From contig JAFMKB010000003.1 in NCBI GenBank assembly GCA_017853205.1, positions 1 through 64,000 of the forward strand: DNA of 64,000 nucleotides, given 5' to 3'. The stretch comes from Gammaproteobacteria bacterium (GTDB lineage: Bacteria; Pseudomonadota; Gammaproteobacteria; Pseudomonadales; Pseudohongiellaceae). A program made the translations under genes and the position numbers. The notes under the pieces were generated by a model. The model did not search any database. It was not told where the DNA came from and saw nothing but the letters and a program-made list of their open reading frames with translations. This document shows, piece by piece, positions 37,694 to 42,554 of the stretch (position 1 is its first letter; the number at the start of each line of letters is the position of its first letter).

Positions 37694-38005
37694 TGATAAA
37701 CCTCTTCCGAACAAGGGCTGTATGAGCGCCCTCGCGATTAATGAATTTGGTGGTGTGGACTGTCTTATTTACATTTTTAAAGCAGGATCATTGCCCCACA
37801 AAGCACGCGATTTTCCCACAGCGGCAAGGCTTATTCAATCACAGTCTGAAGAAGGGCTGGTCGAGTTATAAAACGGGGTTGCTATCGTCGCTAAGGAGTC
37901 AGACAATCGGGATTTGAATAGAATCGAACACACGCAGGAACCTACGAACTTCGCGACCTATACTTCGCGACCAACACAATGAATAAAAAACAAGGAGGTG
38001 AAGAC

Positions 38006-38221
38006 ATGGGCGCTTCAGCAGTAGGGGAAGGGAAGCACAGAATTCAAGGCCCAGAGGGTATTAACACAGCCGAGAGTGAGATTTTTGAGGACGACAAACT
38101 TTGGTACTTCCATAACTCTCACGGTGAAAAGATCGGTCCATTTCGCTACGCTAGCGAAGCGAGGTCCAACCTCGAGTCCCTGATGGCGAGTCTAGAGGCG
38201 AGATTGAAATCGGAAGAATGA
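38006..38221 (+). CDS. small DUF6316-like protein
   Basis: 71 residues from the ATG at 38006, which is preceded by AAGGAGGTG, a near-complete match to the 16S rRNA anti-SD, at five bases. An in-frame ATG nine codons earlier has no such site. The segment KLWYFHNSHGEKIGPFRYASEARSNLESLM follows the W-[FY]-F-x-x-R/S-x-G-x-x-x-GPF pattern with an aromatic core that I associate with DUF6316; that assignment is tentative. Function unknown. The unusually strong ribosome site suggests abundant synthesis. Confidence 0.68.
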   Translation: MGASAVGEGKHRIQGPEGINTAESEIFEDDKLWYFHNSHGEKIGPFRYASEARSNLESLMASLEARLKSEE

Positions 38222-39219: not shown

Positions 39220-39229
39220 CCCCCCCCCC
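39220..39229 (-). repeat. 10-bp poly-G tract before the start codon
   Basis: Ten consecutive C on the plus strand (G on the coding strand), ending five bases before the ATG at 39214. It occupies the ribosome binding position, so a change in its length would alter spacing and translation of the hydrolase-fold gene. Confidence 0.85.
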
Positions 39230-39265: not shown

Positions 39266-39314
39266 TTGCATTATCTCGCGACTGCTTGATAGTATCGTGG
39301 GAATAATTCCCACG
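39266..39314 (+). promoter_or_regulatory. candidate promoter and operator of the DUF6502 gene
   Basis: TTGCAT (39266-39271), 18 bases, TAGTAT (39290-39295), followed at once by a perfect palindrome CGTGGGAA - TAA - TTCCCACG (39296-39314) that would cover the transcription start. The site sits between two divergent genes. Confidence 0.45.
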
Positions 39315-39347: not shown

Positions 39348-40316
39348 ATGGATCCTGGGACTACCCAGCGGAACTCAAAGGACTATACTTCGAACATGGC
39401 GGAGCATAACCTCGACTCACAGCAGGCATCACGCTTGATTTTTGCAGCTATCTCGAAAACGCTGAAACCTGTCGTGCGCTTACTTTTGCATTACGGTATT
39501 GGGTATCCACAGCTTATCGCGCTACTCAAAAGACTCTATGTCAGAGCTGCCGAAGAAGAACTCAATACCGTGGATAAACGTGTTTCGGATAGCCGCATCA
39601 CCTTGCTAACAGGCGTGCATCGAAAAGACGTCGCGAGATTAAGAAAAGAGTCACCCGAAATCCAGCAAGAAATCGCAGAGGGTTACTCACAAGACAACCC
39701 CTCAGACAGCCCAAATGATAACACCGCCTCGCTTGGCGCGAGGCTTGTTGCCGAATGGATGGCTAATCCGCGTTTCTTGCAAGAAGAAAGAGAGAACAAC
39801 CCACCCGCCCCTCTTCTTTTCCGTGATCTAGAAAAGCGTGGTCGAGCAGACTTTTGTGAACTGGTCGAGACGGTCTGCAGGAAGGATATCAGGCCTCGCT
39901 CGGTCTTAGATGAATGGCAGAGGCTAGGCATCGTAAGCGTGAGTGATGACATAATCTCGCTAAACACCGAGGCTTTCGCGCCCAAGGCTGGACTCGCAGA
40001 AAAAGCTTATTTTTTTGGTCGAAATATTCAAGACCATGTTGAAGCAGGCGCGAGCAATCTTCGCGGTAGCGCGCCTCCTTTCTTTGATCGTAGTGTGTTC
40101 TACGATCAGCTCTCACAAGACTCTGTCGAAAAGCTGCGTGCGCTCTCGGCACTCGGAGCTAGTGAGCTACTTACGAAGATAAACGCGCGCGCCCACAGCC
40201 TACAAATGAAAGACATCGCTAACAAAACCGACAGCGCGCAATTCCGTTTCAATCTCGGTATATTTAATTACAGCACCGCTCAATCGCAGCCAGAAGAGGC
40301 AACTTGTGAAGAGTAA
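39348..40316 (+). CDS. DUF6502 family protein
   Basis: 322 residues (306 from the ATG at 39396, which has AAAGGA but at long spacing). The N-terminal region ISKTLKPVVRLLLHYGIGYPQLIALLKRLYVRAAEEE and then SDSRITLLTGVHRKDVARLRKE is the recognisable DUF6502 signature; it looks like a helical, winged-helix-like module, suggesting nucleic-acid binding or regulation (inference). The rest is helical with no membrane segment. Its end overlaps the next gene by 11 bp, so the two are translationally coupled. Function unknown. Confidence 0.85.
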   Translation: MDPGTTQRNSKDYTSNMAEHNLDSQQASRLIFAAISKTLKPVVRLLLHYGIGYPQLIALLKRLYVRAAEEELNTVDKRVSDSRITLLTGVHRKDVARLRKESPEIQQEIAEGYSQDNPSDSPNDNTASLGARLVAEWMANPRFLQEERENNPPAPLLFRDLEKRGRADFCELVETVCRKDIRPRSVLDEWQRLGIVSVSDDIISLNTEAFAPKAGLAEKAYFFGRNIQDHVEAGASNLRGSAPPFFDRSVFYDQLSQDSVEKLRALSALGASELLTKINARAHSLQMKDIANKTDSAQFRFNLGIFNYSTAQSQPEEATCEE

Positions 40317-41259
40317 CGGAAAAGTCCCAGGCGTCCGCATGAACGCGCTCGCGAACGATGATACTCGCATTCGCACTTCGCGCATGAGGCTAGCATTACT
40401 CTTGCTTGTCGCCAGCATTTACGTACTTGGCAACCTTCAGCCCGCAGTCGGCGATCGCAGAGGTGGGGAGGAAGGCAGTGGCGTCGGAGGCACAGGCATT
40501 TTAGATCTCCCCGGATCCGGTCTGGGCGGCTCAGGCATGCGCCCGTTCTTAGGCATTGTTTCACCACAGGAGACAGTGCTTGACGGTCTCGACACACAAC
40601 TAGTAGCGGGTGGCTTCGATCAGGGCCCCGCGAATGAAGTCATTGTGTTACGCGATGCGTCGTTTCCCCGCAACACGCCGCAGAACACAGGAATTACGGA
40701 AGAGGTCAAGATCAAACGCGTGCTTGATAATCCCGTATCGTCTGTTCGTTCCACTACTCAGCAGACACCTCAATCGCCGACTCATACGGCTACTCAGCCT
40801 GCGATATCTCGAAACGATGGGTTGACCGGTCGACGGATCGAGGGATTTCTGCAATCGGACTTATCTTCTCTTACGACCGACGGCTCAATCGAATCGCCTT
40901 CAAGCATTAGCATTTTGGAATCGATAGAAAATGGCACGCAGCAAATTAATGCCCTACTCGCGATAAGTGCCAGTGAGCTCGGGATGCCTGAGGCAGAAAT
41001 AAATGAAACTGAGATCGAGCCAGCGGCGGTGCAATGGGCTGATATCGTCAATTGGCTCAACGCAAATGCGTCAGCAGAGCAAGAAAAAGCTGTTGAGAAG
41101 CCAACCGCCATACCAAAGGACACAAGAGACAACTTGGCGATAGCAGAGATTACGCGGGCCTCTGGGCTGAAGCGCCCGCAGTTGCCGTCGTTACAAAGAG
41201 CGAGACCACTTCAACGCGCAACAATTTTGCCCCCGAGAGTTCGTCCTTTGGGTCTTTAG
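40306..41259 (+). CDS. exported Gly-rich / low-complexity protein coupled to DUF6502
   Basis: 317 residues from a GTG inside the DUF6502 end. Membrane segment MRLALLLLVASIYVLGNL (residues 27-44) with an AVGD cleavage-like site, then a Gly-rich stretch GSGVGGTGILDLPGSGLGGSG. Such GGTG repeats open DUF5666 proteins, which in other bacteria often follow DUF6502, but the following DUF5666 beta domain is not recognisable here. The remainder is Ser/Thr/Gln- and Pro-rich, likely disordered, ending in a basic tail (RPLQRATILPPRVRP). Probably periplasmic or surface; function unknown. Confidence 0.72.
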   Translation: MKSNGKVPGVRMNALANDDTRIRTSRMRLALLLLVASIYVLGNLQPAVGDRRGGEEGSGVGGTGILDLPGSGLGGSGMRPFLGIVSPQETVLDGLDTQLVAGGFDQGPANEVIVLRDASFPRNTPQNTGITEEVKIKRVLDNPVSSVRSTTQQTPQSPTHTATQPAISRNDGLTGRRIEGFLQSDLSSLTTDGSIESPSSISILESIENGTQQINALLAISASELGMPEAEINETEIEPAAVQWADIVNWLNANASAEQEKAVEKPTAIPKDTRDNLAIAEITRASGLKRPQLPSLQRARPLQRATILPPRVRPLGL

Positions 41260-41299
41260 TACCTATCGTTGAAGCAGAACGGAGAGCCTCTTTGTCTGT

Positions 41300-42133
41300 C
41301 TATTTGACCTGGTAAACTAACTGCAGATACACAGCGTGTTCAGCGCTCGATGCAGTGAGTCCCGTACTTGCTAGCGCCGTTAGTGACCAAGTACGACTCA
41401 ACTCCCAACCAGCATAGACCCCCACCTCCTGAACATCGCCGAAAAATTTCGAGGCGGTTTCGCGATAATCGTAGAGTAGACCTGCGCTGGTTGACTGACT
41501 AAGTCTGCGCGCGATGCCTACCTGCGCATAGCCTGAGTTCTTGATATCCGTGAAAACTTGCGATGCCCCACGATCACTGTATCCAAGCGTTGTGAAGACG
41601 GTGTTTTGCCCAACATAGAAAGAGGATTCCAGCTGCAATGACACGTCCCGCTCACCAGTTCCGAGGTTTTTTTCGACACTCGCTGTGGGGAGTTTGACAC
41701 TGAGTCGCGCGCCCACTGAGAGAGAATCGCCGAATAAACTCGGTAGTACTCCCTCAGGAATTCTCTGTGTTTTCGTATAGCCTATTTCAACAAGACTATC
41801 TCCTGTCCCAGAATAGCGCCCTATAGAATCGGAAGCGACCGCCCTTGTAACACCGCCCAGATTAACGAGCACGTTGCCTGGACCCTCTACGCGCAGCCTA
41901 GCCAGCGAAAGTTGCCCGCTCCAGCCACCTTTTGTCACCGCCCAGCTTACGGGCAAATAAGTGATACGCGTAGCATCCTGGGCGCCATAGTTGCCCAACG
42001 CAGAATAAAAACCGAGAGCAACATGTTGCTGCAACTCATGGTTTACAGGCAGTTCTTGCGCCGCAAGACCAAGCGGGAATACACCAATTAACATCCCGGT
42101 GCGGCAAAATAAGCAACCTCTAGCCCTGGTCAT
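41300..42133 (-). CDS. outer-membrane beta-barrel protein, phenol-degradation-type (MetA-like) family
   Basis: 277 residues. Signal peptide-like start (ILIGVFPLGLAAQ region around residues 14-26), then alternating hydrophobic strands, GTGDSLVEIGYTKT, LSVGARLSVKLPTASVEKNLGTGERDVSLQLESSFYVG, and a final aromatic-poor strand VYLQLVYQVK. The KLPTA ... LGTGE.D pattern is that of the MetA-pathway-of-phenol-degradation-type barrels, often annotated as transporters. Its start overlaps the msrB stop by 14 bp. It converges on the Gly-rich gene, so it may belong functionally with the DUF6502 pair, but that is inference. Confidence 0.72.
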   Translation of the reverse strand: MTRARGCLFCRTGMLIGVFPLGLAAQELPVNHELQQHVALGFYSALGNYGAQDATRITYLPVSWAVTKGGWSGQLSLARLRVEGPGNVLVNLGGVTRAVASDSIGRYSGTGDSLVEIGYTKTQRIPEGVLPSLFGDSLSVGARLSVKLPTASVEKNLGTGERDVSLQLESSFYVGQNTVFTTLGYSDRGASQVFTDIKNSGYAQVGIARRLSQSTSAGLLYDYRETASKFFGDVQEVGVYAGWELSRTWSLTALASTGLTASSAEHAVYLQLVYQVK

Positions 42134-42554
42134 TAACTCCCTCGAAATCGAGACATGCTGAGTTTATGCAGTAACGAAGTCCAGTTATTGCAGGGCCGTC
42201 ATTGAAAACGTGACCGAGGTGGGAATTACAGCCAGTGCAAACAACCTCTGTTCTCTGCATACCATGGCTTGTATCTAGACGCTCTTCGATTGGTGCGGCC
42301 GACGCGGGGAGAAAAAAACTTGGCCAGCCGCACCCAGAGTCAAATTTGGTATCAGATAGAAACAACACCTCACCACAGCCTTTGCAGCGGTAACTGCCCT
42401 CTTCCTTGTTATCCCAAAACTCGCCAGTAAAGGCGCGCTCAGTCCCTTGTTTGCGCATAATAGCGAACGCTTCAGGACCAAGCCTTTCTAACCACTCTGC
42501 TTCTGTTGTAGGTAGCGCACGCGGCGTTATATTTTCATCAATCGAATCACTCAT
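42120..42554 (-). CDS. msrB: peptide-methionine (R)-S-oxide reductase
   Basis: 144 residues. Repairs oxidised methionine in proteins. Two zinc CxxC pairs (CKGCG and CTGCN), the substrate loop FDSGCGWPSFF, HLGHVFNDG and the catalytic cysteine in LRYCINSACLDF are present. No signal peptide, so cytoplasmic. The neighbouring alaA gene is divergent, an arrangement also found in Pseudomonas. Confidence 0.97.
   Translation of the reverse strand: MSDSIDENITPRALPTTEAEWLERLGPEAFAIMRKQGTERAFTGEFWDNKEEGSYRCKGCGEVLFLSDTKFDSGCGWPSFFLPASAAPIEERLDTSHGMQRTEVVCTGCNSHLGHVFNDGPAITGLRYCINSACLDFEGVNDQG

Follow-up and report, generated by a model that had tools for sequence, protein, structure and literature searches.

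An outer-membrane barrel and an exported disordered-tail protein, probable partners beside a DUF6502 gene in Pseudohongiellaceae

We examined a 64,000-nucleotide stretch of a Gammaproteobacteria bacterium of the family Pseudohongiellaceae (assembly GCA_017853205.1, contig JAFMKB010000003.1, positions 1 to 64,000; hereafter the window), focusing on a locus at 39348-42133. Three genes lie here: one for a DUF6502 protein (P1), one for an exported Gly-rich protein with a GGTG motif (P2), and, converging on these two, one for an outer-membrane beta-barrel (P3). A preliminary description of the locus, drawn from the DNA letters, had proposed that the three form an envelope system. The features of the locus are as follows.

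39348-40316, + strand: P1, a DUF6502 protein of 322 amino acids (aa), predicted local transcriptional autoregulator (PF20112, 77.5 bits)
39588-39647, + strand: helix-turn-helix-like segment of P1, residues 81-100 (model helices H81-88 and H92-100)
40306-41259, + strand: P2, exported GGTG protein with a long disordered body and a GTG start (open frame and relatives)
40474-40497, + strand: GSGVGGTG motif of P2, common to GGTG/DUF5666-type partners of DUF6502
41158-41256, + strand: conserved basic C-terminal tail of P2, the part of P2 also found in P1-less genomes
41300-42133, - strand: P3, outer-membrane beta-barrel with a FapF/COG4313-like fold (structure model and PDB profile match)
39296-39314, no strand: candidate DUF6502 operator, a perfect 19-bp palindrome CGTGGGAATAATTCCCACG with core TGGGA-N5-TCCCA, between the hydrolase gene and P1
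38252-39214, - strand: alpha/beta hydrolase gene, oriented divergently from P1 with the palindrome between them (Pfam Abhydrolase_6 and Abhydrolase_1, above cut-off)
42120-42554, - strand: msrB, upstream of P3 (TIGR00357, 172.6 bits)

The window's reading frames confirmed the layout given in the preliminary description, in which the P1 and P2 frames overlap by 11 bp and the barrel gene converges on them. The same 11-bp overlap was seen in a relative (L033), the sequence GAAGAGG lies six bases 5' of the P2 GTG start, and a gap of 40 bp separates P2 from P3. P1 matches the Pfam DUF6502 model over positions 2-262 of 268, well above the cut-off of 27 bits, and is the one DUF6502 match in the window's genome (2.5 Mb, 109 contigs). 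P2 starts with a hydrophobic stretch followed by GSGVGGTG and a low-complexity body, and thus places a GGTG-containing exported protein directly after DUF6502. It had been described as having a GGTG start and a disordered tail and as lacking the beta domain expected of such proteins, which was right: P2 had no Pfam match at E ≤ 1, and hence none to DUF5666 (PF18914). NCBIfam gave no match for P1, P2 or P3 at E ≤ 1. In its relatives, P2 shows the same hydrophobic segment at the N-terminus and a GSGxGGTG motif, in many cases with a second GGTG behind it, together with a low-complexity stretch of 150-200 residues and a tail resembling RIQRPELPPxQRxRPxQRxxxLPPRxxPLxL.

We then asked how far this arrangement is conserved within the GTDB family. 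DUF6502 matches were found in 64 of 137 family genomes, P2 matches in 49 of 136 and P3 matches in 74 of 136. Neighborhoods were analyzed in 78 stretches (77 fetched plus the window), with named relatives that include OM182 bacterium BACL3 and Pseudohongiella. Profiles matched P1 in 64 of these stretches, P3 in 75 and both in 61; P1 and P3 were convergent in all 61, and P2 sits between them in the loci read (in L039 it was found on reading and not by the automatic pick, and in L084 it is split by masked bases). Co-occurrence therefore extends beyond the first two genes, with P3 at 61 of the 64 P1 loci, and the layout seen in the window is no coincidence. Two of the three P1 loci without P3 stop at a contig edge (L107 and L108); the third, L105, lacks both P2 and P3, and a gene for a protein with TPR repeats and a barrel (TPR-barrel gene) occupies their place. 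P1 can be absent as well: among 13 P1-less loci (L052-L064), 12 retain P2 and P3, which rules out that the three genes are inseparable and makes P2-P3 the core pair, with P1 a separable regulator. The P2 proteins of the P1-less loci have lost GGTG and kept the C-terminal tail. Reading of the family neighborhoods did not find the hydrolase cluster in these 13 loci, which suggests that P1 belongs to one module with the hydrolase. The idea that P3 is a satellite of msrB was also ruled out, since the TPR-barrel gene intervenes between them in many relatives, and P3-like barrels outside the family lie near DUF6502 in stretches with no match to the msrB profile. The barrel thus does not simply follow msrB independently of DUF6502.

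Barrels of this kind extend beyond the family. Among 369 sampled genomes of the class, 99 had a DUF6502 match and at least 50 a P3 profile match (at most seven candidates per genome were scored). Among the matches listed, both proteins occurred in 35 genomes, in 13 of which (the window's included) no more than 3 kb of a single contig separated them, unlike in the remaining 22. Near DUF6502-linked barrels the partner was often GGTG-rich with a low-complexity tail. Three long partners were scanned and carry DUF5666 (L188, L189 and L191), and the short partners L195 and L198 had no Pfam match, as is the case for the window P2. We collected 105 distinct DUF6502 loci from outside the family, of which 90 had enough flanking sequence or a barrel, and 57 of these had a GGTG partner. 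Calling a tail disordered when at least 55% of its last 60 residues came from the set PERDKQSNH, we found such tails in 19 out of 20 GGTG-partner loci with a barrel versus nine out of 37 without (Fisher 1.8e-7; 2e-6 and 4e-8 at cut-offs of 50% and 60%). That the DUF5666 domain is what accompanies the barrel was not borne out; the disordered tail does. A crude lipobox pattern was rarer among P2 proteins with a barrel (7/21 vs. 37/51, p 0.003), and fewer lipoproteins near the barrel is what would be expected of a free substrate.

Exported tail proteins were also observed beside barrels located away from DUF6502. Reading 20 such loci around P3 hits (L209-L228), we found a small exported protein with an RPE- or RPD-type tail adjoining the barrel in eight (L209, L210, L213, L214, L215, L221, L222 and L223), an RPE-type tail protein 1 kb from the barrel in L211, and a GGTG protein with a charged tail in L227. 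Other neighbors were a DUF3106-like protein (L219 and L220; Pfam was run on L219 only), a Met-rich exported protein (L217 and L228) and a further exported protein (L225); no exported partner was seen by the barrel in the remaining five loci read (L212, L216, L218, L224 and L226). Since DUF3106-like and Met-rich proteins also adjoin it, the low-complexity partners of the barrel family may be of several kinds. Altogether, 36 of 45 distinct non-family barrel loci were assigned a partner, and 35 of these partners had a tail by the 55% measure, a share that is not an unbiased rate because tails guided the picks made by hand.

We also compared the charges of tail and barrel. A strict neighbor rule picked tails at 13 of 45 non-family barrels, 41 of 51 family barrels and 15 of 644 control genes. 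In the 13 strict-rule pairs, the charge of the tail was inversely correlated with that of the whole barrel (rho -0.77; the frame taken by the rule in L211 was another one). Because this rule missed many tails, partners were then set by rule and by hand, which gave a rho of -0.60 over 36 pairs; the control, other genes of the same loci, had a rho of 0.05 (175 values). Restricting the calculation to aligned barrel columns, and dropping two partial barrel matches (L168 and L200) and one barrel 3 kb from its partner (L170), left 33 pairs with a rho of -0.75 (p 6e-7), and adding 11 family members and the window gave -0.69 over 45 pairs. Independent contrasts computed on the barrel tree yielded an r of -0.59 (p 2e-5), and none of 2000 random permutations, a test that ignores relatedness, reached the correlation. 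Results were similar for tails of 30 to 100 residues, for the 17 pairs that the rule alone had picked (rho -0.78, p 2e-4) and for the 28 pairs within 450 bp (rho -0.74), and were unchanged when L211 was removed. L175 pairs an acidic tail with a basic barrel, and L215 has the reverse combination. Among the barrel columns that followed tail charge most closely are positions 65, 74, 105 and 145 of the window P3.

The structural model of P3 (AlphaFold, 60 relatives) is a barrel with a mean predicted local distance difference test (pLDDT) of 87.1. Its closest solved structure is FapF (Foldseek E 1.4e-10; VIA Z 24.2, 2.2 Å over 214 residues), with residues 34-276 of the model aligned to FapF 106-406, followed by the COG4313 channel 4rl8 (Z 23.0) and an autotransporter barrel (Z 20.2). 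A PDB profile search also matched FapF (E 1.5e-4), making it the best hit by profile, Foldseek and VIA alike. On this model P3 has the barrel of the FapF fold, which is 12-stranded; DSSP lists 13 strand segments in the model, so the strand count of P3 is approximate. Residues P149, A151, G158 and G160 are invariant and T150 and T159 nearly so, forming PTA and GTG. The window P3 had no Pfam match at E ≤ 1, Phenol_MetA_deg (PF13557) included, and this domain was matched at E ≤ 0.1 in 40 of 60 relatives (best 1.4e-10). The plug helix and periplasmic coiled coil of FapF are absent from the model, in which some ten residues lead from the hydrophobic signal to the first strand. The structure prediction envisaged in the preliminary description thus gave a FapF/COG4313 fold for P3, and for P1 a model with no significant fold match (see below).

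How does the pair compare with known systems? In its presumed working, it recalls RcsF, a lipoprotein stress sensor threaded in outer-membrane barrels; what the two would have in common in operation is that the lumen of a barrel holds an exported segment. P3 resembles FapF (PMC5557850) in barrel fold, profile match and a low-complexity exported partner encoded beside the barrel, and the P3 segment PTA...GTG is comparable to the FapF PTG motifs by sequence, not by residue-by-residue superposition. It differs in lacking the plug helix and coiled coil reported there as FapF features, in its association with DUF6502, and in a partner that is Pro/Arg/Glu-rich or of the GGTG type. The neighbors differ too, since those in the window are the hydrolase, P1, P2, msrB and an alaC-like gene, not FapA-E (no genome-wide Fap search was made). 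With the COG4313 channel Pput2725 (4rl8; PMC4493636), P3 shares the barrel fold, and its relatives share Phenol_MetA_deg; that protein is described as an uptake channel, and the portion of the source consulted makes no mention of a disordered protein partner. The DUF6502-DUF5666 pair has in common with our locus the P1 family, the GGTG motif and the gene order, P1 then P2, whereas the window P2 has no DUF5666 match and a barrel is added. FapF exports unfolded amyloid subunits, and the closest structure that its authors name is an uptake channel of the same fold (PMC5557850), so fold alone leaves the direction of transport unsettled.

We next turned to the regulation of the locus. The AlphaFold model of P1 (pLDDT 78.5) has helix pairs at 81-100 and 169-193, and G89, H91, R92 and K93 are invariant across the family. 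Fold searches with P1 returned no significant match (best Foldseek E 0.84; best VIA Z 6.5), so the helix-turn-helix assignment rests on the pattern of the segment and its conservation. The palindrome CGTGGGAATAATTCCCACG has one match in the window, with 0 expected, and TGGGAWNNNWTCCCA has a single site in the window's own genome, at this locus. A strict operator form, TGGGA-(A/T)N3(A/T)-TCCCA, precedes P1 at 54 of the 64 family loci, with two or more copies at 36 of them. The figure for shuffles was 0.03, and a stretch taken from within the P1 coding region contained the form at one locus of 64. In a longer upstream region, allowing for misplaced starts, TGGGA-N5-TCCCA was present at 56 of 64 loci. 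The strict form was found in none of the 13 P1-less loci (L058 has one looser match, far off). Two loci, L050 (from genome G136) and L084, have a further site in the P3/TPR-barrel promoter.

Sites were similarly confined in whole genomes. The 17-bp form GTGGGAWNNNWTCCCAC occurred in nine of 12 genomes, only at this locus, with a third site in G136 beside P3; the genomes without it were G081 and G123, which are not among the DUF6502-matching genomes, and G102, which has the 15-bp form. This shorter form had 20 sites in 10 genomes, of which 14 were upstream of DUF6502, one was beside P3 and five were elsewhere (four in the 6.6-Mb G136 and one in G127); the total for the window genome was one. 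Outside the family, 36 of the 105 DUF6502 loci had TGGGA-Nx-TCCCA, with a spacer of five in 15 and of six in 21, compared with 0.19 expected and at most two in shuffles; eleven other spacers between 0 and 12 gave no match at these loci. Allowing one mismatch raised the count to 59 of 105 (5.8 in shuffles). At one position of the predicted DNA-reading helix, the residue aligned with H91 of the window was His in all 15 spacer-5 loci and in none of the 21 spacer-6 loci (Fisher 1.8e-10). Among loci with a one-mismatch site, some of which are there by chance, 10 of 11 with His had spacer 5, and all 11 with another residue had spacer 6. The conserved palindrome and the covarying helix residue back the earlier impression that DUF6502 is regulator-like. 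On these sequence patterns the role of DUF6502 as a local autoregulator is well supported; that P1 itself binds the palindrome is what we infer.

The gene set, the fold and the linkage and opposed charges of tail and barrel lead us to view P2 and P3 as probable partners. The reading we favor, though we would put it at about an even chance, is a small envelope system under local control, in which the tail of P2 is matched in charge to P3 and is either exported or held by it. P1 would bind TGGGA-N5-TCCCA in its own promoter and so control P1-P2 and probably also the divergent hydrolase. P2, predicted to be disordered, would use the hydrophobic segment at its N-terminus to cross the inner membrane and would meet P3 with the conserved basic tail at its C-terminus. 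As the net charge of P3 tends to be opposite to that of the partner tail, electrostatic attraction might bring the tail into the pore. The likeliest outcome would then be export of the tail, or of the whole protein, to the surface, in the manner of FapF and FapC; a close alternative, which we rank second, is a resident tail that is bound in the pore or gates it. The three-gene envelope system of the preliminary description was thus supported, with qualifications: the trio is conserved, P1 proved separable (12 loci have P2 and P3 without it), the barrel has a known fold, and the direction and purpose of transport, like the contact between tail and barrel, are what we infer.

Several observations weigh against this reading. 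Within the family alone, tail and barrel charges were not significantly correlated (rho -0.09, 49 pairs). Only 21 of 38 contrasts were opposite in sign, so the charge mirror rests on a few large changes, and partners were hand-picked in 16 of the 33 pairs, which by themselves gave a rho of -0.44 (p 0.09). Calculated along the P1 tree, the association of tail and barrel was weaker (r 0.28, p 0.011, 82 leaves). Of the 45 non-family barrels, nine were left without a partner; reading showed a short tail protein at one of these loci (L155). Family P2 proteins may be membrane-anchored rather than free. The barrel is without the FapF plug helix and coiled coil, and its fold serves uptake in COG4313 channels. 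As for the regulator, the P1 model is of moderate confidence and has no significant fold match, 46 of the 105 non-family loci lack an operator site even at one mismatch, and spacer type and His largely track two P1 clades, so their covariation may reflect one evolutionary change.

Some of these points suit other explanations better. P3 could be an uptake channel of the COG4313 type for a small hydrophobic or charged compound, with P2 as a tethered protein that plugs or gates the pore, closing or opening it with its tail, and with P1 and the hydrolase regulating and processing the compound. The near-equal closeness of 4rl8 and FapF (Z 23.0 vs. 24.2), the Phenol_MetA_deg matches in 40 of 60 relatives and a hydrolase gene that diverges from P1 and is missing where P1 is missing all fit this proposal, and a plug would need a matching charge too; but the genes of the slot (tig, mobA-like, msrB, alaC and pdxB, some named from sequence reading) are not catabolic, and the repeat tails of some partners far exceed plug length (L175). 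We consider it a serious contender, if rather unlikely. Less likely again is that P2 and P3 work apart, P2 as a periplasmic or envelope-bound disordered protein (for example, a binder of peptidoglycan or lipopolysaccharide) and P3 as an ordinary channel, their adjacency reflecting shared regulation and an old slot. The uncorrelated charges within the family would then be unsurprising, as would a slot that is conserved regardless and a barrel neighbor that varies (RPE tails, DUF3106-like, Met-rich); against such independence stand a charge mirror that holds with tree correction and against control genes, tails accompanying barrels across DUF6502 loci, and a P2-P3 pair that survives the loss of P1. 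Finally, another regulator might bind the palindrome, a suggestion that draws on the lack of a significant structural match between P1 and a known DNA-binding protein. The clustering of sites at DUF6502 promoters genome-wide, the absence of the strict form from P1-less loci and the covariation of the helix residue with the spacer make this improbable.

A broader proposal, which we put forward tentatively and with less confidence than the local one, is that two-gene export or display systems of this kind are widespread and undescribed in Pseudomonadota. Each would couple a FapF-fold pore to an electrostatically matched disordered substrate (often with RPE repeats), and DUF6502 would be a new family of transcription factors, with operator TGGGA-N5/6-TCCCA, that regulates one branch. 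The new elements here would be the rule for pairing tail and pore, and DUF6502 as a regulator along with its operator; we do not claim membership in FapF. We found no paper naming DUF6502 or PF20112 in an open-licence library, where mentions of DUF5666 look incidental, and the predicted operator and the covarying helix residue now make DUF6502 function testable. If tail and pore are indeed partners, charge matching would be a simple way of giving specificity to the export of disordered proteins and would widen a Fap-type mechanism beyond the Pseudomonas amyloid.

The surroundings of the trio showed some further features. The start of P3 overlaps the end of msrB by 14 bp (42120-42133), so P3 may be translated from the msrB message in the window genome; we assign msrB itself to the conserved genomic slot and not to the system. 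A small gene at 37979-38221 has a weak DUF6316 match (E 0.045, below cut-off), and its cluster was present in 34 of the 78 analyzed loci. Near the trio, the same 78 stretches had an HD/GAF gene in 32, the TPR-barrel gene in 29 and a FecR-domain gene in 19. A larger cluster surrounds the trio in L053, L054, L061, L062, L065, L070, L076-L078 and L080, composed of an HD/GAF signaling protein (~670 aa), the TPR and barrel protein (~450-480 aa; weak TPR_Slam match in L105 and weak BBP2_2 match in L054 and L105) and a FecR-domain protein (~1000 aa; Glu-Pro-repeat-like match, Trypan_PARP, in the two scanned). No relative of the TPR-barrel protein was found in the window's own genome, in a search run without a positive control. 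In one family genome (G033, contig C78, locus L103), P3 seems interrupted by stop codons and the P1 frame is open. Lastly, a run of ten C at 39220-39229, six bases upstream of the hydrolase start and in the promoter region shared with P1, is a possible slippage tract.

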